DNA of 33,901 bases from an uncultured Pseudomonadota bacterium (GTDB lineage Bacteria > Pseudomonadota > Alphaproteobacteria > RUG11792): positions 1 to 33,901 of the forward strand of contig CACZTP010000009.1 in the NCBI GenBank assembly GCA_902784055.1. Direction: 5' to 3'. Positions 5,838 through 31,765 of this stretch are shown here, in pieces. Numbering within the stretch: the stretch's first letter is position 1; each line of letters begins with the position of its first letter. The position numbers were made by a program, and so were the translations under genes. The notes under the pieces are model-generated. The model was given only the letters and a program-made list of their open reading frames with translations. It was not told where the DNA came from and made no database searches.

Positions 5838-6377
5838 TCAATCGCGAAACGGAAAGTTTAATGCCTTCAGCAAAGCCACCGCCGACTTATCATCTTTTGC
5901 AGAGGTACAGATATTAATATCGAACCCTCGAATCTTATCGATTTTGTCGTAATTTATTTCGAAGAATATTATCTGCTCCTTAACACCCATTGAGTAGTTA
6001 CCTCTACCATCAAACCCTTTTTTCGAAAGACCACCAAAGTCACGTACCCTAGGTAAAGCCATATATATAAGCCTATCTAAGAATTCGTACATCTTATCTC
6101 GACGTAAAGAAACTTTAGCTCCTATCTCTGCCCCTTCCCGAAGTTTGAAGTTTGCAATTGACTTCTTAGCCATTGTCATAACAGCTTTTTGTCCAGCAAT
6201 AGTTGTTAAGTCATCGACTATAGCCTGCATTACCTTTTTATCGTGACCGGCATCCTTCGATGTACAATTTAAAACAACTTTCTCAAGTCTGGGTATCATA
6301 TACTCGCTTGAAATCCCCAACTCCTTTTTTAGAGCAGGTCTTATTTCAGAAAAATACTTGTCTTTTGTGTAACTCAT
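5838..6377 (-). CDS. rplE: 50S ribosomal protein L5
   Basis: Large-subunit protein that binds 5S rRNA and contacts P-site tRNA. The 179 residues include MIPRLEKVVLNC near the start and SIANFKLREGAEIGAKVSLRR in the middle. They continue with YEFLDRLIYMALPRVRDFGG (about 92-111), GRGNYSMGVKEQIIFFEI, and the final LLKALNFPF. The start ATG overlaps the rplX stop by 4 nt. Normal length for L5. Confidence 0.98.
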   Translation of the reverse strand: MSYTKDKYFSEIRPALKKELGISSEYMIPRLEKVVLNCTSKDAGHDKKVMQAIVDDLTTIAGQKAVMTMAKKSIANFKLREGAEIGAKVSLRRDKMYEFLDRLIYMALPRVRDFGGLSKKGFDGRGNYSMGVKEQIIFFEINYDKIDKIRGFDINICTSAKDDKSAVALLKALNFPFRD

Positions 6378-6715
6378 AGCTTTTCTACCTTCGGAACCAA
6401 ATTACCACTCTTTTTGAAATAACGGACTTTATTCCCATTTTCATCAAATTTAAATCCAACACGACCAGGTTTATCCGTTGAAGGATCAACAACGGCCACA
6501 TTCGATAAATCAATAGGCATTTCCTTTGTAAGAACCCCTTGAGGATAACGATAGTCTGGTTTTATGTGACGAGTTACTTTATTAACACCATCAACTATAA
6601 CCTTGCGCTCCTTTGGAAACACTTTTTTAACAACACCTCGTTGCCCTTTTTTTGAACTACCGCCAACGGTTACTTCAACAAGGTCTCCTCGTCTAACTTT
6701 AAAATGTATTCTCAT
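6374..6715 (-). CDS. rplX: 50S ribosomal protein L24
   Basis: Assembly-initiating large-subunit protein with a KOW motif. The 113-residue product begins [20 protein letters not shown], then [21 protein letters not shown] (KOW region, about 23-43), NKVTRHIKP and a C-terminal block with [21 protein letters not shown]. Its ATG overlaps the rplN TGA by 4 nt and its TGA overlaps the rplE ATG by 4 nt. Confidence 0.97.
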
Positions 6716-25265: not shown

Positions 25266-27200
25266 CTAGTCAAAATTGTAAGGATCAACATCGATTTTAG
25301 TAAAAATACCAAAGTGAGGTTTATATGATTTAAGTATACCTTTTATTTTATTTTGAATACTATTTTTTGAAATAAGTAAAATATTATAACGATACTTATA
25401 ATTTGTTTTATACAAATTTGGAATTATAACGCCAACAACTATTGTATTCGCAATTGAGGCATTCCGTAAGTTCTGAGTTAATTCCTGAGCGTATTCATTT
25501 GCTTTATCATCATTTGATGAAGAAATCTCAATACTTATAATGTGCCCGTACGGAGGCATATTAGTTAATTTACGATTATTAAGTTCATTTTTATAAAATT
25601 CAGATTGATTATTAATCATTGTAAGTAAAGGCTCTTCAGGATTATACGTTTGTATAATAACTTCCGATTGAAAGTTTCCTGTACGCCCAGCCCGCCCTGT
25701 TACTTGATATAGCAATTGAAAGGTATTTTCAACTGCTCTGAAGTTTTCAGTATATAACATATAATCAAGATTTGCTACTACAACAAGATTTAATGAGTTA
25801 AAATTATGCCCTTTAGCTAAAATTTGGGTTCCAATTATTATATTAACTTCATTGTTCTTTATTTTGTTAATTACTTCATCTATTTTAGTAGGATTATTCA
25901 TATTATCACTTGAACACATTACTATACTTGCTTTTGTAAATAGTTTTTGACATTCGGCATAAACTTTTTCTATACCTATACCAAAATTTACTAAATATTC
26001 ATTACCACACTTTTTACATTGTTTAATATTTGATGATGTATATCCGCAATGATGACAAATTAATCTTGAGCCTGTAGCGTGGTAACACAGCCATGTGTCG
26101 CAAGCGGGGCACATTATTTTCCATCCGCAATTAGGACATAATCGTTTAATTGCATATCCTCTACGATTTACGAATATTAAGATTTGTTGATTGTTATTTA
26201 GATAATATTTTATTTTTTCTATAGTTTCAGGGCTGAAAATTGCATTTTTTCCTACAAAACGCATATCAGTAACATTTACAGTTGGTAAATTTGCTCCGAG
26301 ATAGTATCTCGATGTTAATTTTATATATTTGTATTTACAATCAATTGCATTTTTATAACTTTCAACAGACGGTGTTGCGGAGGAAAGGATTATTGGAATC
26401 TTTAAAAGAGAGGCTAAGTATACAGCCATATCCCGTGCATTATATATTTGATGATCGTTTTGTTTAAAAGTAGGATCATGCTCTTCATCGACAACTATCA
26501 ATTTTAGATTTGAGAACGGTATAAATAAAGCCGATCTAGCTCCTACAACTATGATTGGTTCGCCTTGTATTGCATTTTGCCATATACTCAATTTTTTCGC
26601 AGGTGAAACTGAATTGTGCCATATAAAAACCTCACGTCCACAACGTTTTGCAATACTTTCTGCCATAACATTTGATAATGTTATTTCTGGAACAAGTATT
26701 AATATCTGTGCGTTATTTAATCGTTTTGCGACCTCAAGAAAAACTTCGGTTTTACCAGAGCCGGTAACTCCATGTAATAAATAAACATCAAACTTTTCAA
26801 GTTCAATTTTATTAACTGCATTTTGCTGTTCTTCATTCAATATGACGTTTGCAATTACGTCTGACCTTATACCTACGTGCGATTTATGTTGTTTTAATAG
26901 AACTGTTAAGTTAAATGGGCAAAGTAATTTGAGCGCAGAGCTCATTGGAATTAAATTATATTCAGATACGAATTTTATAAAATTCAAATATGCTTTATTT
27001 ATTGTGTAGGATAATATATCGGAAACTTGTTTTATATTCCCTAAGTAGTCACTATCTTCTGCATTGTCAAATACAATACCGATAATTTTTTTATTTTTAA
27101 AATAAACAGCAATTAATTGCCCCGGTTGAAGCTCGTCACTTGAAGAATAGGTACATAAAAAGTCTATTCCCTGCCTAACAACCCCAACCGAACTGTACAT
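25266..27200 (-). CDS. priA: Primosomal protein N' (replication restart helicase)
   Basis: Recognises stalled forks and reloads the replisome. At 644 residues it is shorter than the 730-residue Escherichia coli protein. The saving is between the N-terminal DNA-binding part (1-55) and the helicase, whose Walker A GVTGSGKTE is at 144-152. The DEEH box (VVDEEHD), a zinc region with CPNC, CPAC, CHHC and CKKC pairs, and the later helicase motifs TQILAKGHNF and YQVTGRAGR are present. The ATG at 27200 shares a base with the fabI stop, so the two are translationally coupled. Confidence 0.96.
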   Translation of the reverse strand: MYSSVGVVRQGIDFLCTYSSSDELQPGQLIAVYFKNKKIIGIVFDNAEDSDYLGNIKQVSDILSYTINKAYLNFIKFVSEYNLIPMSSALKLLCPFNLTVLLKQHKSHVGIRSDVIANVILNEEQQNAVNKIELEKFDVYLLHGVTGSGKTEVFLEVAKRLNNAQILILVPEITLSNVMAESIAKRCGREVFIWHNSVSPAKKLSIWQNAIQGEPIIVVGARSALFIPFSNLKLIVVDEEHDPTFKQNDHQIYNARDMAVYLASLLKIPIILSSATPSVESYKNAIDCKYKYIKLTSRYYLGANLPTVNVTDMRFVGKNAIFSPETIEKIKYYLNNNQQILIFVNRRGYAIKRLCPNCGWKIMCPACDTWLCYHATGSRLICHHCGYTSSNIKQCKKCGNEYLVNFGIGIEKVYAECQKLFTKASIVMCSSDNMNNPTKIDEVINKIKNNEVNIIIGTQILAKGHNFNSLNLVVVANLDYMLYTENFRAVENTFQLLYQVTGRAGRTGNFQSEVIIQTYNPEEPLLTMINNQSEFYKNELNNRKLTNMPPYGHIISIEISSSNDDKANEYAQELTQNLRNASIANTIVVGVIIPNLYKTNYKYRYNILLISKNSIQNKIKGILKSYKPHFGIFTKIDVDPYNFD

Positions 27201-27976
27201 TAGAATTTAACACCTACAGTATTACATCCGCAATCGACATGTATAATTTCCCCTGTAATTCCTGAAGCAAAATCACTAAGCAAAAAGGTGCACGCTTTAC
27301 CAACATCTTCCCTTGTAACATTGCGACACAACGGCGATCTATTCTGCTCGTACTCAAGAATTTTTGAAAATCCACCAACCCCCGATGATGCAAGAGTTTT
27401 TATAGGACCTGCAGACACAGCATTCACTCGTATATTGAATTCTCCAAGATCTGACGCTAGGTACCTTACGCTCGCTTCCAACGCTGATTTTATAACTCCC
27501 ATCACGTTATAATTTGGAACAACCTTTTCAGCTCCGTAGTATGAAAGTGTTAGTATACTTCCGCCATTTGGCATTACATCTTTGGCACATTTACAAACTT
27601 CCGTGAACGAATAGCATGAGATATTAATAGCATTGAGAAAATTATCTCGTGATGTGTCGTAATACTTCCCTTGCAATTCTTTTCTATCTGAAAAGGCTAT
27701 CGAATGAACAACAAAATCAATCGAACCATATAAATTGCCGATTTCTTGAAACAGTGCAGGTATTGCATCGGGCTGTGATACATCGCATGTAAATACTCGG
27801 CAATTCTTAAAAAGCTCTATATCGAAGATTTTCTGCTTAAAACGTTCGTTTTGAGCTGTAAATATCAATTCGGAACCGCAATTACTCAAAATAGAGGCAA
27901 TGCCATATGCTATTGAATATTCATTTGCCATGCCCATTATGAGCCCACGTTTACCTTTCATAAGCTGAATTTGCAT
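27200..27976 (-). CDS. fabI: Enoyl-[acyl-carrier-protein] reductase (NADH), FabI
   Basis: Last reduction step of each fatty-acid elongation cycle. I place the start at the ATG at 27976 (258 residues). The alternative ATG at 27961 is also possible; codons further upstream are not FabI-like. With this start Y146, Y156 and K163 (YYGAEK, NYNVMGVIK) fall at the same numbers as the catalytic residues of Escherichia coli FabI. The cofactor loop is KGKRGLIMGMANEYSIAYGI and the C-terminal end TGEIIHVDCGCNTVG. It is the type targeted by triclosan. Coupled to priA downstream; accBC in this window feed the same pathway. Confidence 0.95.
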   Translation of the reverse strand: MQIQLMKGKRGLIMGMANEYSIAYGIASILSNCGSELIFTAQNERFKQKIFDIELFKNCRVFTCDVSQPDAIPALFQEIGNLYGSIDFVVHSIAFSDRKELQGKYYDTSRDNFLNAINISCYSFTEVCKCAKDVMPNGGSILTLSYYGAEKVVPNYNVMGVIKSALEASVRYLASDLGEFNIRVNAVSAGPIKTLASSGVGGFSKILEYEQNRSPLCRNVTREDVGKACTFLLSDFASGITGEIIHVDCGCNTVGVKF

Positions 27977-28043
27977 AATATCTTTTCGTTTTAACCACGG
28001 TAAAGATAATAGCACTTCAAGCATCATCAATTTTATATAATCA

Positions 28044-28451
28044 TCATCCTGATATAAAAACTCCAAATATTCCACTAAATATGCGTGTAATAGCATTTGC
28101 AGTTTCAACTGTTGGTGATGTTAAGTTATTATGTGTTACTAGACAAATATTGTTGGTACACATTGTGTTCTCCAACAATTTTATATATTCATCATCAGAA
28201 ATACTATTTTTATGGTGGCAACTGTTTTTTTTATATGTCGCATTCGGTAACGTATTAGTATTGGGCTGAAAATAGGTAATAAGCGCTGGGTTGCATGTCA
28301 TATTGTTGTTTTTTTCATAGAAATTTTTGCATCCGATTGCGTTGCTTGCATCTGATATTTCTGTTGAAGCAATCGAACATCCTGACAAAATTAAAAAATT
28401 ATATATAATTTTAGCAAATAAAAATTGAATTAAATAAGAAATATTTTTCAT
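28044..28451 (-). CDS. Small Cys-rich lipoprotein of unknown function
   Basis: I do not recognise a family. The 135 residues begin with a signal peptide and a clear lipobox LSGC (22-25), so C25 would be lipidated. The mature part is Asn/Thr-rich with further Cys in GCKNFYEK, MTCNPA, NSCHHKNS and MCTNNICLV, then a hydrophobic, Gly-containing end (RIFSGIFGVFISG). An ideal GAGGAG site lies just before the ATG at 28451, slightly close at 2 nt. That and the lipobox are the main evidence that it is real. It lies 67 nt before fabI on the same strand. Confidence 0.65.
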   Translation of the reverse strand: MKNISYLIQFLFAKIIYNFLILSGCSIASTEISDASNAIGCKNFYEKNNNMTCNPALITYFQPNTNTLPNATYKKNSCHHKNSISDDEYIKLLENTMCTNNICLVTHNNLTSPTVETANAITRIFSGIFGVFISG

Positions 28452-28687
28452 AACTCCTCGTACAAATATCCTTGTTACACAATATATACTTTCATATAAA
28501 GTTTAATAAACTGTTAATTTTTTAAGCATTTTTTAAATTTGGTTAATTTAATTTAAAATGATGTTACATACACCAAAATGTGCGATACATCATATTTGTA
28601 TATTTTTATACGTTAACGATATTTTAATAAATACCCCCTTACTATCAGTATTAGAGGGATTGCTGGGGAAAGGCTAGAAACGGAGCT
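28452..28687. promoter_or_regulatory. Divergent intergenic region between the lipoprotein gene and comM
   Basis: 236 nt, very AT-rich, shared by two divergent genes. A perfect 7-bp inverted repeat ATGATGT (28558-28564) and ACATCAT (28587-28593) sits in the middle. A TTGTAT near 28597 could be a -35 box for the rightward gene. The last 60 nt before comM abruptly change to C- then G-rich sequence and end in a CGGAG ribosome binding site. Confidence 0.35.
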
Positions 28688-30211
28688 ATGGTATCCAAAA
28701 TAAGGACTGTGGCATTCGTTGGCATGTTGCCGACGGAGATTACCGTGGAAGCTCAGATTTCACCGGGGATTGCCTCATTTTGTATAGTCGGGTTGCCCGA
28801 TAAGGCTGTTGCTGAAGCAAAGGAACGAATTCGCTCGGCGTTTTTTACGCTTGGGTTGGGAATTCCAGCTAAGAGGGTAATTGTTAATATGGCACCTGCG
28901 GATATACCAAAAACGGGTTCGCACTATGATTTGCCTATAGCTCTGGCTGTTTTATGTTCGATGGGCATTGCTGAGCAGAATATGCTTGATGAGGCTGTTG
29001 TAATGGGAGAGCTGGGTCTTGACGGAAGTTTAGGGTACGTTTCGGGAACTATCTGTGCTGCTATGTTTGCTAACGAAGGCGGTTTGTCGATTGTTTGCCC
29101 GCGGAAGTGTGCTAATGAAGCCGTGTGGAGCGGTAACAAAAGCATAATAGTCGCTGAAAGCTTGGGGCAGTTGTTAAATCAACTTACCGGAAAAGCGCAG
29201 ATGCCGTTTGTTGAGCCGAAACCTGTAGTGTTAGAAACCGTTAAATACAACGGTGATTTTTCCGAAGTGCGGGGTCAGCTTGTAGCAAAACGGGCTTTTG
29301 AGGTGGCTGCGTGTGGAAAGCACAACGTGCTTATGATTGGCGTTCCGGGATGCGGTAAATCGATGCTAGCCTCCCGACTATGCACTATTTTGCCTCCTCT
29401 TACACCAAAAGAGATGTTAGAAACAACGTGTATTTATAGCTTAGCAGGTATGCTACCTGAAGAAGGGATTATACAAAACCCTCCGTATAGAGCGCCTCAT
29501 CATTCTGCCTCACTTGTTGCTATTACTGGCGGAGGCTCAAATGCAAAGCCTGGAGAAATTTCATTAGCTCACAATGGCGTGTTGTTTCTTGATGAGTTAC
29601 CAGAGTTTCAAAGACAGACAATAGAAGCGTTACGGCAACCTTTGGAAGATAAGAAAATAACAATATCGCGAGCAAAGGAACATGTTACATATCCCGCAAA
29701 CATACAGTTGGTAGCTGCTATGAACCCGTGCAGGTGTGGATATCTTGGAATACAAAACAAAGAATGTTCGAAAGCTCCAATATGCGCAAAAGATTATTTA
29801 AATAAAATTTCAGGTCCTGTTCTAGACAGATTCGATATAACAATTTGTATGAACAATATCAATAATTCAGAACTATTAAGCCCCCCAAGGCAATCTGAAA
29901 CATCCGAAGTAATAAGAAAAAGGGTGATTGAGGTACGTGAAAAACAGATAAATCGAGCTTTATCGCATGGTGTATCGTCAAACCAACTTAATGGGCAGAT
30001 TGGTAATAAATATCTAGAAACAATTGCCAATATGACAAGAGAAGCAAAAGAACTTATAAAAGATGTTATGTCCCGAACTTATCTGTCCGCACGAGGATTT
30101 CATAAAACAATAAAAGTTGCTCGCACTATTGCTGATATGCGTAACTCTGACAACATTGATATTGTTGATTTATCAGAAGCATTACAATATCGTACAGATA
30201 TAAATATGTAA
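28688..30211 (+). CDS. comM: ComM/YifB family Mg-chelatase-like AAA+ ATPase
   Basis: Hexameric helicase known to promote branch migration during natural transformation; YifB homologues are widespread even in non-competent species. The 507 residues have the N-terminal ChlI-like domain (GLPDKAVAEAKERIRSAF at 35-52, MAPADIPKTGSHYDLPIALA at 68-87). Then come Walker A GVPGCGKS (218-225), RAPHHSASLVAITGGG, Walker B VLFLDELPEF, and the C-terminal lid with YLSARGFHKTIKVARTIADM. Base composition changes sharply inside the gene: about 48-50% GC in sampled lines before about 29390, 32-38% after it. Confidence 0.93.
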   Translation: MVSKIRTVAFVGMLPTEITVEAQISPGIASFCIVGLPDKAVAEAKERIRSAFFTLGLGIPAKRVIVNMAPADIPKTGSHYDLPIALAVLCSMGIAEQNMLDEAVVMGELGLDGSLGYVSGTICAAMFANEGGLSIVCPRKCANEAVWSGNKSIIVAESLGQLLNQLTGKAQMPFVEPKPVVLETVKYNGDFSEVRGQLVAKRAFEVAACGKHNVLMIGVPGCGKSMLASRLCTILPPLTPKEMLETTCIYSLAGMLPEEGIIQNPPYRAPHHSASLVAITGGGSNAKPGEISLAHNGVLFLDELPEFQRQTIEALRQPLEDKKITISRAKEHVTYPANIQLVAAMNPCRCGYLGIQNKECSKAPICAKDYLNKISGPVLDRFDITICMNNINNSELLSPPRQSETSEVIRKRVIEVREKQINRALSHGVSSNQLNGQIGNKYLETIANMTREAKELIKDVMSRTYLSARGFHKTIKVARTIADMRNSDNIDIVDLSEALQYRTDINM

Positions 30212-30249
30212 TTAATAATAGTTAATAAATCATTACTTTAACTGAAAAG

Positions 30250-30278
30250 TTGACTTGATACATATTTTGATCTAACAT
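30250..30278 (+). promoter_or_regulatory. Promoter of the F0 ATP synthase genes
   Basis: TTGACT (30250-30255) and TAACAT (30273-30278) are 17 nt apart, with transcription predicted about 27 nt before the atpB ATG. Confidence 0.65.
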
Positions 30279-30311
30279 GAGTGTAGATAGGACGCGTGTT
30301 GACAAAGATAG

Positions 30312-31061
30312 ATGGTTGATCCGTTATCCTCATTTGAGGTTCACAACATAATCCCGATGCATATTTTTGGCATTGATGTATCGATTACCAATTCATCTTT
30401 GTACATGTTACTTGTCGTTGCTTTAATTTGTTCAGTTTGCGCTCTTGGGACTCGCTGTAACGGTTTAATTCCAACAAAACTGCAATTTTGTCTTGAAAAG
30501 CTTTACTTTCTTGTATCAGGTATAGTTGATCAACAAATACAACATAAATCAGCAAAGATGTTTCCTTATATATTTGCTTTGTTTATGTTTATAATGCTCG
30601 GAAATATAATTGGATTAATTCCCGGTTCGTTCTCTTTTACAAGTCAGCTTGTAATTACAATGGGTATGGCATTTATGGTATGGATTGCATCAATAATTGT
30701 TGGTTTTGTCGTTCAAGGTAGGCATTTCTTCCGCCACTTTTGTCCAGAAGGAATGCCGATATATATAGCTCCATTCTTTGTTCTTGTTGAAATAATGTCC
30801 TTTTGTTTTAGACCGGTAAGTCTTGGTATAAGGCTTTTTGCTAACATGCTTTCGGGACATATAATGATCGAAGTAATGGCAAGTTTTGCTGTTTCGTTAG
30901 CTGGTATATTTATGTTTGATCCAGCGTCTGCAGTTCCTGTTATAGCTAACGTGTTCCTAAATGTGTTTAAATTGGTTGTGTGTGTGTTACAGGCGTACGT
31001 TTTTTCAGTTTTGTCTTGTATTTATATGGCTGAAGTGTTAAAGCCTGTAGCGGATAAATAA
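30312..31061 (+). CDS. atpB: ATP synthase F0 subunit a
   Basis: Stator channel subunit that passes protons to the c-ring. The 249 residues form about five or six membrane segments. The essential arginine is R174 in SLGIRLFANMLSGHIMIE, and the C-terminal helix has LQAYVFSVLSCIYMAEVLK. It is first in the F0 cluster. atpI, often just ahead of atpB, is absent, and comM lies there instead. The ribosome binding site before the ATG at 30312 is weak. Confidence 0.96.
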   Translation: MVDPLSSFEVHNIIPMHIFGIDVSITNSSLYMLLVVALICSVCALGTRCNGLIPTKLQFCLEKLYFLVSGIVDQQIQHKSAKMFPYIFALFMFIMLGNIIGLIPGSFSFTSQLVITMGMAFMVWIASIIVGFVVQGRHFFRHFCPEGMPIYIAPFFVLVEIMSFCFRPVSLGIRLFANMLSGHIMIEVMASFAVSLAGIFMFDPASAVPVIANVFLNVFKLVVCVLQAYVFSVLSCIYMAEVLKPVADK

Positions 31062-31324: not shown

Positions 31325-31765
31325 ATGGTTCCTCAACTTGATTCTTCATACTGGGTTTCTCAGATTGTATGGCTTACAATTTGTCTTGGGATACTAGTTC
31401 TATTTTTTAAAAAAGTATTTTTACCAAGGATTACATCGTCCGTATCGTCCAGGGATAAACATATCCAAGAATTAAAAGATAAGGTTGCCTCTTTGACAAA
31501 GCTTTACGAAAAATTTACGCAAAAGCTTACAGATATTGACAATCAAAGAATTAAAGAAACACAAAAAATTATGATCGAAACAAAGGATAGATGTGAAAAA
31601 ATACTGAATGAACAGCTAAAAGTTATTGACTTAAAAAGTAAAAATGCAATTGCCGAAGCCAGGAAGGACGCTGATAAACTTTTAAAGAATCTAAATGAAA
31701 CAATAAAAGCTGAAATAGACGTCACTACTAAATTGGTTATTAATAAGTTATTTGGAGATAAGTAA
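31325..31765 (+). CDS. ATP synthase F0 subunit b'
   Basis: One of the two peripheral-stalk subunits. The 146 residues have a single N-terminal membrane helix (about 10-30, SQIVWLTICLGILVLFFKKV), followed by a long charged coiled-coil region. It lies directly after atpE, where alphaproteobacteria and cyanobacteria carry b' (also called atpF2 or atpG), and is followed by a second b-like gene. Its stop shares a base with the next ATG. Assignment of b' versus b rests on order. Confidence 0.9.
   Translation: MVPQLDSSYWVSQIVWLTICLGILVLFFKKVFLPRITSSVSSRDKHIQELKDKVASLTKLYEKFTQKLTDIDNQRIKETQKIMIETKDRCEKILNEQLKVIDLKSKNAIAEARKDADKLLKNLNETIKAEIDVTTKLVINKLFGDK

Follow-up and report, generated by a model that had tools for sequence, protein, structure and literature searches.

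What could give the first part of a single gene a base composition unlike that of its own remainder and of nearly all other sampled DNA of the genome? The question is raised by comM in an uncultured alphaproteobacterium (assembly GCA_902784055.1), within a window of 33,901 nucleotides that covers positions 1 to 33,901 of contig CACZTP010000009.1. An initial annotation of this DNA described a sharp composition break inside comM and offered two readings of it: that the 5' part came by recombination from a relative poorer in AT, or that mutation bias acts locally. The source genome (G000) is a draft assembly of 751,025 bases in 28 contigs, a tiny genome that is probably that of a symbiont, and its genus is sampled by three species in all, the other two being the congeners G001 and G002.

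Measures and samples

Composition at synonymous sites is expressed as R, the fraction G/(A+G) at purine-ending codons, and Y, the fraction C/(C+T) at pyrimidine-ending codons. Composition surveys of G000 cover 273.5 kb of the genome. Background open reading frames begin with ATG only, and the shorter was removed wherever two overlapped. Minimum lengths were 200 or 240 codons in the survey of splits in third-position GC (GC3), 150 in the background of 414 windows, 120 in the survey of R-site blocks (195 genes), 300 in the survey of 5' gradients and 240 in the gene samples of G017 and G024. comM itself was excluded from the 414-window z-scores, from the 5'-gradient survey and from a comparison of R and Y in 115 windows of relatives. 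Most p-values are nominal, each test being taken singly.

The comM gene, its leader and its surroundings

The gene occupies 28688..30211 of the forward strand and encodes, in an intact frame of 507 aa, a comM/YifB-family Mg-chelatase-like AAA+ ATPase. A profile search gives a full-length match to TIGR00368 (502.8 bits, cut-off 362.4) and a score of 406.9 to the E. coli-type equivalog NF007365, under its cut-off of 530. Three domains, all above cut-off, follow in the order PF13541 (residues 20-139, N-terminal Lon-like, ChlI), PF01078 (190-395, central AAA+) and PF13335 (404-502, C-terminal). The Walker A motif, GVPGCGKS at residues 218-225 (29339..29362, forward strand), contains two residues, V219 and C222, that G000 shares with G002 and that are absent from all 23 family comMs used as outgroup. 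At residue 219 the outgroup has P in 12 of 23 sequences and V in none, and at residue 222 it has S in all 23 and C in none; the long-branch rows L028 and L030 were left out of this outgroup. DNA branch migration by ComM in transformation is known from other species (PMC11612176).

Immediately 5' of the gene lies a noncoding leader (28640..28687, forward strand), delimited by local alignment and common to G000 and G002. Its alignment with G002 conserves 42 of 48 columns and scores 62, where 200 shuffles reach 40 at most; with G001 it is not alignable (score 23, shuffle mean 22.4). The leader carries a Shine-Dalgarno-like site, GGAG, and is G-rich from 28654 onward, with 15 G in the 34 bases of 28654-28687 and a GC content of 0.56, compared with 0.24 over 28540-28653.

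The surroundings of comM differ among genomes. atpB stands downstream of it in G000 and G002 and not in G001, flanks vary widely across loci L001-L030, and the 27 comM loci of other genera contain none of eight proteins encoded beside comM in this genus. An open reading frame upstream of comM in locus L005 resembles, by eye, the ATP synthase subunit encoded at 31325-31765 of the window. Within 27200-28451 of the window, a minus-strand frame (28044-28451) overlaps the start of another (27200-28108) by 65 bases, and translation of this second frame probably begins at an internal codon. In G006 comM residues 2-33 have a further, short match (C15:151389-151484, 59% identity), which lies some 1.9 kb upstream of the complete gene and is perhaps the remnant of a duplication or integration.

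A G-rich, A-poor tract on the coding strand

The composition break in comM is real and rare in the G000 genome. The maximal-scoring segment, the GC3 split and the R-site block score delimit a tract at 28654..29376 of the forward strand, about 723 bp that comprise the end of the leader and comM codons 1-229 and in which the coding strand is G-rich and A-poor. The left edge lies about 34 nt 5' of the start codon, within the 60 nt where the initial annotation had placed the onset. The right edge, set by the GC3 split at 29374..29375 on the same strand, follows codon 229 (about residue 237 in the annotation), just past Walker A as had been described; it falls at neither a gene border nor a domain border, since PF01078 continues across it.

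Sliding windows of 200 bp show GC of 0.45-0.50 over 28700-29499 and of 0.19-0.28 immediately upstream; the values are 0.395-0.415 over 29400-29799 and 0.285-0.365 over 29700-30399. The strong G-over-C skew first noticed before about 29390 is borne out, reaching +0.32 in the tract region. Among 5249 overlapping 700-bp windows in the 273.5 kb surveyed, the one at 28701 (GC 0.484) ranks first. The best GC3 split of comM, from 0.46 to 0.25 after codon 229, has a likelihood ratio (LR) of 23.8, a value equalled in 0 of 5000 permutations, and is the largest internal step among 135 open reading frames of at least 240 codons. With an R-site block score of 26.5, the tract far exceeds both the maximum of the simulated null (11.2) and the next-best gene (11.0), and no comparable block was found in the other genes among the 195 tested.

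The break consists of an A-to-G shift on the coding strand and not of a general increase in GC. Between codons 1-230 and the remainder of comM, R changes from 0.58 to 0.25 (p 3e-7) and Y from 0.31 to 0.24 (p 0.30); relative to 414 windows of other genes, the tract has z-scores of 5.6 for R and 1.0 for Y. The shift in R is present in nearly all codon families, small in some. By the same background the 3' part (29375..30211, forward strand) is ordinary for G000, with R of 0.250 (z -0.1) and GC3 of 0.253 (z -0.4). Part of the raw GC contrast reflects amino-acid content, because among 30 family comMs the 5' part exceeds the 3' part in GC at first and second codon positions in 27, equals it in two and falls below it in one; the third-position step sets apart G000 and, less strongly, G002. 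A general 5' gradient of composition is absent from 98 other G000 genes, whether first of their unit or internal.

Three further features of the genome were recorded in these surveys. The second strongest internal GC3 split, in L033:8239-9312 (G000:C3), runs in the opposite direction, from 0.21 to 0.42 at codon 245 (LR 16.2). A C-rich candidate for a second block, in L044, was rejected when it turned out to be an Asn-rich repeat region: L044:4901-9208 (G000:C15) is a frame of 1436 codons with Asn-rich 69-bp tandem repeats (6089-6431), and its C-terminal part has a likeness to eukaryotic ubiquitin proteases seen by eye only. Among 42 tRNA matches of this AT-rich genome (loci L191-L220 and L222-L233), C34 tRNAs are found for 12 of the 13 G-ending codon families, Ala-CGC alone not being seen; small genomes usually lose C34 tRNAs.

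Several direct sources of the tract were considered and set aside. An overlapping gene was rejected, the longest stop-to-stop frame other than comM in any frame of 28600-29450 being an antisense one of 84 codons. A similar stretch of 80 codons exists in G002, and open antisense stretches are expected where the sense strand has few TTA, CTA and TCA triplets. Between 28400 and 29500 nothing matches Rfam at E<=1, and a conserved RNA fold was rejected as strong in G002, not strong in G000 and devoid of compensation. A search of the rest of G000 for a paralogue or conversion cassette returned only chance-level DNA matches of 18-22 bases, and a search of viral contigs for a mobile-element carrier returned no relative of residues 1-235.

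Distribution among relatives

The initial annotation had named the same gradient in all sister genomes as a finding that would tell against its reading. The gradient is not common to all of them: G002 shares it and G001 does not. The comM of G002 (86% protein identity) has the same break in weaker form, with R of 0.40 in the 5' part and 0.18 in the 3' part (p 2e-4) and Y of 0.28 and 0.30 (p 0.66); its best GC3 split, at residue 233, is non-significant by GC3 alone (p 0.12). The comM of G001 (77% protein identity) has no break, R being 0.17 in both parts.

Across 48 comMs, comprising 30 from the family and 18 near-full ones from class relatives (the partial class hits G037, G038 and G048 were left out), a GC3 split at p<=0.013 occurs in four: G000, G017 (residue 253, p 0.013), G024 (residue 235, p 0.003) and G035 (residue 369). 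A recurrent break near codon 229 in other genera was nonetheless rejected. Splits with LR>=12 occur in 1 of 19 sampled genes of G017 and in 4 of 24, comM included, of G024, and the breaks in these two genomes are not counted as evidence because such splits are also found in other genes there. Among GC-richer family genomes, G007 has a mean R of 0.536, and the 5' part of its comM has R of 0.64 and Y of 0.29. In 15 sampled relative genomes, 115 windows have R of 0.50-0.66, and only seven of these have Y <=0.31.

Phylogeny, divergence and substitution pattern

Residues 1-235 and 236-503 served as separate inputs to protein trees. Of 31 family genomes in which comM has a match, the trees include 30; the 89-residue fragment of G021 and the second short match of G006 were left out. 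Both trees join G000 with G002, then with G001 and then with the neighbouring genus, and in these 30-genome trees the two parts of comM do not differ in their nearest relatives. The initial annotation had proposed separate phylogenies as a check and taken identical relatives as evidence against an import; import from another genus is indeed unsupported, because both parts share their closest relatives. Along the tract, G001 ranks first or nearly first among relatives once the sister species G002 is set aside. At 30 tract residues the three congeners agree with one another and differ from the neighbouring genus, and 15 separate G000 and G002 from G001 plus that genus, 10 of them derived in G000/G002, three derived in the others and two tied. 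A donor, if there was one, was therefore a congener. Arrival of the tract from a different genus or a more distant group, a very improbable origin, gains something from topology tests, in which a placement of G000/G002 outside G001 and the neighbouring genus is allowed by the 5' data (AU p 0.228) and rejected by the 3' data (p 0.040); the affinity to G001 along the tract and the residue counts just given stand against it. The less AT-rich relative first envisaged may still have been a congener outside the sampled species.

At four-fold sites G000 and G002 differ at 41 of 102 positions in the tract and at 866 of 1674 in 18 other genes (p 0.025); the comM 3' part (49 of 93) is typical. Divergence in the tract is thus slightly below, not above, the sampled average, and within the spread of single genes (0.18 to 0.62). 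Because it is not raised, the tract is not older than the split of the two species and is, if anything, younger. The states of R sites in the two genomes are correlated at 0.49 in the tract and at 0.06 outside it (bootstrap P(diff<=0) 0.0013).

Amino-acid changes on the stem of G000 plus G002 number 17, against 12 on the G001 side, in the tract, and 8 against 18 outside (p 0.058). Most of the additional replacements in the tract arose in the common ancestor of G000 and G002 and are of A-to-G type, typically E>G, N>G, N>S, K>R and I>V, and stem A-to-G changes at codon positions 1-2 affect 11 of 103 sites in the tract and 3 of 141 outside (p 0.009). Among discordant R sites, G000 exceeds G002 by 18 to 5 in the tract (p 0.011) and by 19 to 14 outside. 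On the G000 branch T>C changes affect 12 of 48 sites in the tract and 6 of 45 outside, and the excess of A>G is weak (p 0.08); within the tract both kinds of change are present and third-position reversals are almost none. Replacements number 10 in G000 and 6 in G002.

A model of one import followed by decay, with the decay value set by hand at 0.66, gives lnL of -107.36 for equal decay in the two lines, -103.52 when G000 has its own equilibrium and -103.43 for unequal decay. The unequal-decay fit demands zero turnover in G000, which is unlikely because the number of replacements there is ordinary. Since a single import with equal decay fits worse, the data call either for repeated import or for a local bias that continues to act.

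Origin of the tract

The best explanation, one that we hold tentatively and at somewhat under an even chance, is an intragenic mosaic block acquired by recombination with a congener. By homologous recombination, DNA of a congener outside the sampled species with a G-richer comM coding strand would have replaced the leader and the first ~229 codons of comM, once before G000 and G002 separated and probably once more afterwards on the branch to G000. The incoming piece would have entered where leader homology began, and its other end would lie where the gene is most conserved, beside Walker A. The tract, its strand bias, its presence in both sister species, its affinity within the genus and the retained genes are observations; the event, its repetition and its donor are inferred. 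In favour of recombination stand the sharp edges, one in the leader and the other within a conserved domain; the odd composition and the 48-nt leader, common to G000 and G002 only; the synonymous states that the sisters share inside the tract, together with their lower four-fold divergence; and the enrichment of their stem in amino-acid changes. GC-richer genomes such as G007 are known in the family. Recombination is plausible in this lineage because ComEC, DprA and ComM are retained: ComEC is intact in G000 (an open frame of 646 aa), and of 35 family genomes 33 have ComEC, 31 DprA and 31 ComM. It is preferred partly on prior grounds, being common and having the needed genes at hand. Against it, both parts of comM have the same relatives, none of the three sampled congener species has the donor's composition, and a generally GC-richer donor fits the A-to-G-only shift poorly, given the seven matches in 115 windows of relatives. 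At least two imports are needed, and the lower divergence of the tract lies within the single-gene spread. The other reading of the initial annotation fits this strand bias. A local, strand-biased A-to-G mutational pressure acting in situ on a vertically inherited tract of the G000/G002 line, strongest in G000, is an unlikely alternative with these points in its favour: noncoding, synonymous and replacement sites are all shifted, R moves in nearly every codon family and Y does not, the leader is G-rich as well, stem changes at codon positions 1-2 are in excess with derived replacements of A-to-G type, R forms a graded series (G001 0.17, G002 0.40, G000 0.58), and G000 exceeds G002 at discordant sites in the tract and not outside. 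What that reading lacks is a mechanism, none having been found, as well as any similar block in 195 genes or 5' gradient in 98; T>C is also raised on the G000 branch where the A>G excess is weak, divergence between the sisters in the tract is not raised, and where G001 is A-rich parsimony cannot separate A>G in G000 from G>A decay in G002. Its more specific form, a sustained hypermutation- or editing-like A-to-G bias localised to one transcribed stretch of ~720 bp, from the comM leader to codon ~229, that alters noncoding, silent and replacement sites and the Walker A region, is doubtful. We know of no bacterial precedent for local A-to-G mutational heterogeneity of such a kind, and a process of this sort, if real, would to our knowledge be new for bacteria.

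Selection on RNA or codons, by which the first ~700 nt of the comM message would be kept G-rich for folding, stability or slow translation, is quite doubtful. The tract folds at -222.9 kcal/mol in G000 and -222.5 in G002, against -159.9 in G001, and that of G002 (L065:14360-15046) beats its synonymous shuffles (z -5.2); the G000 tract is no better than its own (z -0.8, or -0.02 to 0.37 over a limited span), nor is that of G001 (z -0.4). Single changes kept 30 pairs and broke 31, and pairs with two changes number four kept and four broken, so there is no compensatory pairing. The conservation of the leader with G002 and the C34 tRNAs that match G-ending codons would suit such selection, which is at odds with a shift that spans nearly all codon families and includes replacement changes, and with the lack of an Rfam match. 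GC-biased gene conversion at a local recombination hot spot, which would have raised the GC of the tract, is improbable. Such conversion has been proposed as widespread in bacteria (PMC4450053), and the retained competence genes, the co-occurrence in the tract of A>G with T>C on the G000 branch and the near absence of third-position reversals fit it. It is disfavoured because C should rise with G: Y is flat in G000 (p 0.30) and in G002 (p 0.66), and neither sister shows a strand-symmetric rise of G and C. A chimera of assembly or binning is scarcely credible; the 28-contig draft would permit one, and it is contradicted by the separate draft of G002, which breaks at nearly the same codon (233), by the intact frame and by the lack of a second copy of the tract in G000. 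Ordinary mosaic evolution is the likeliest class of explanation, with a strand-biased detail that stays unexplained. If recombination made the tract, a bacterium with a genome of ~0.75 Mb still exchanges genes and bears the mark of this in the very gene that aids it.

The comEC gene of G002 (L148:1518-3378) lies in two overlapping frames of 379 and 256 codons, where G000 and most of the family have one long frame. This may be a real loss or a sequencing error; as a speculation, a real split would suit a line whose intake of DNA has ceased and whose tract is decaying.

Comparison with known systems

Searches of open-licence PMC papers on mosaic composition, comM, symbiont transformation and biased conversion turned up no report of the comM break. 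Intragenic mosaic recombination as described in PMC2639706 likewise places breaks within genes and within annotated domains, in keeping with the statement there that protein domains are not units of transfer. The comM tract has the sharp composition edge inside a gene and differs from those cases in lacking tree conflict or a donor, its signal being one of composition only and on one strand. It is likened to mosaic genes and not proven to be one of them, because both trees show the same relatives. With GC-biased gene conversion, on the account in PMC4450053, it has in common a local rise in GC and the retention of recombination genes; it differs in that G is raised and C is not. Endomicrobium, a reduced endosymbiont treated in PMC8809381, likewise keeps comEC, comM and dprA in a small genome from a gut habitat. 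It belongs to a different phylum, and the evidence from the present lineage consists of the genes themselves. If the tract arose by recombination, DNA uptake by these small-genome gut alphaproteobacteria becomes a testable question.
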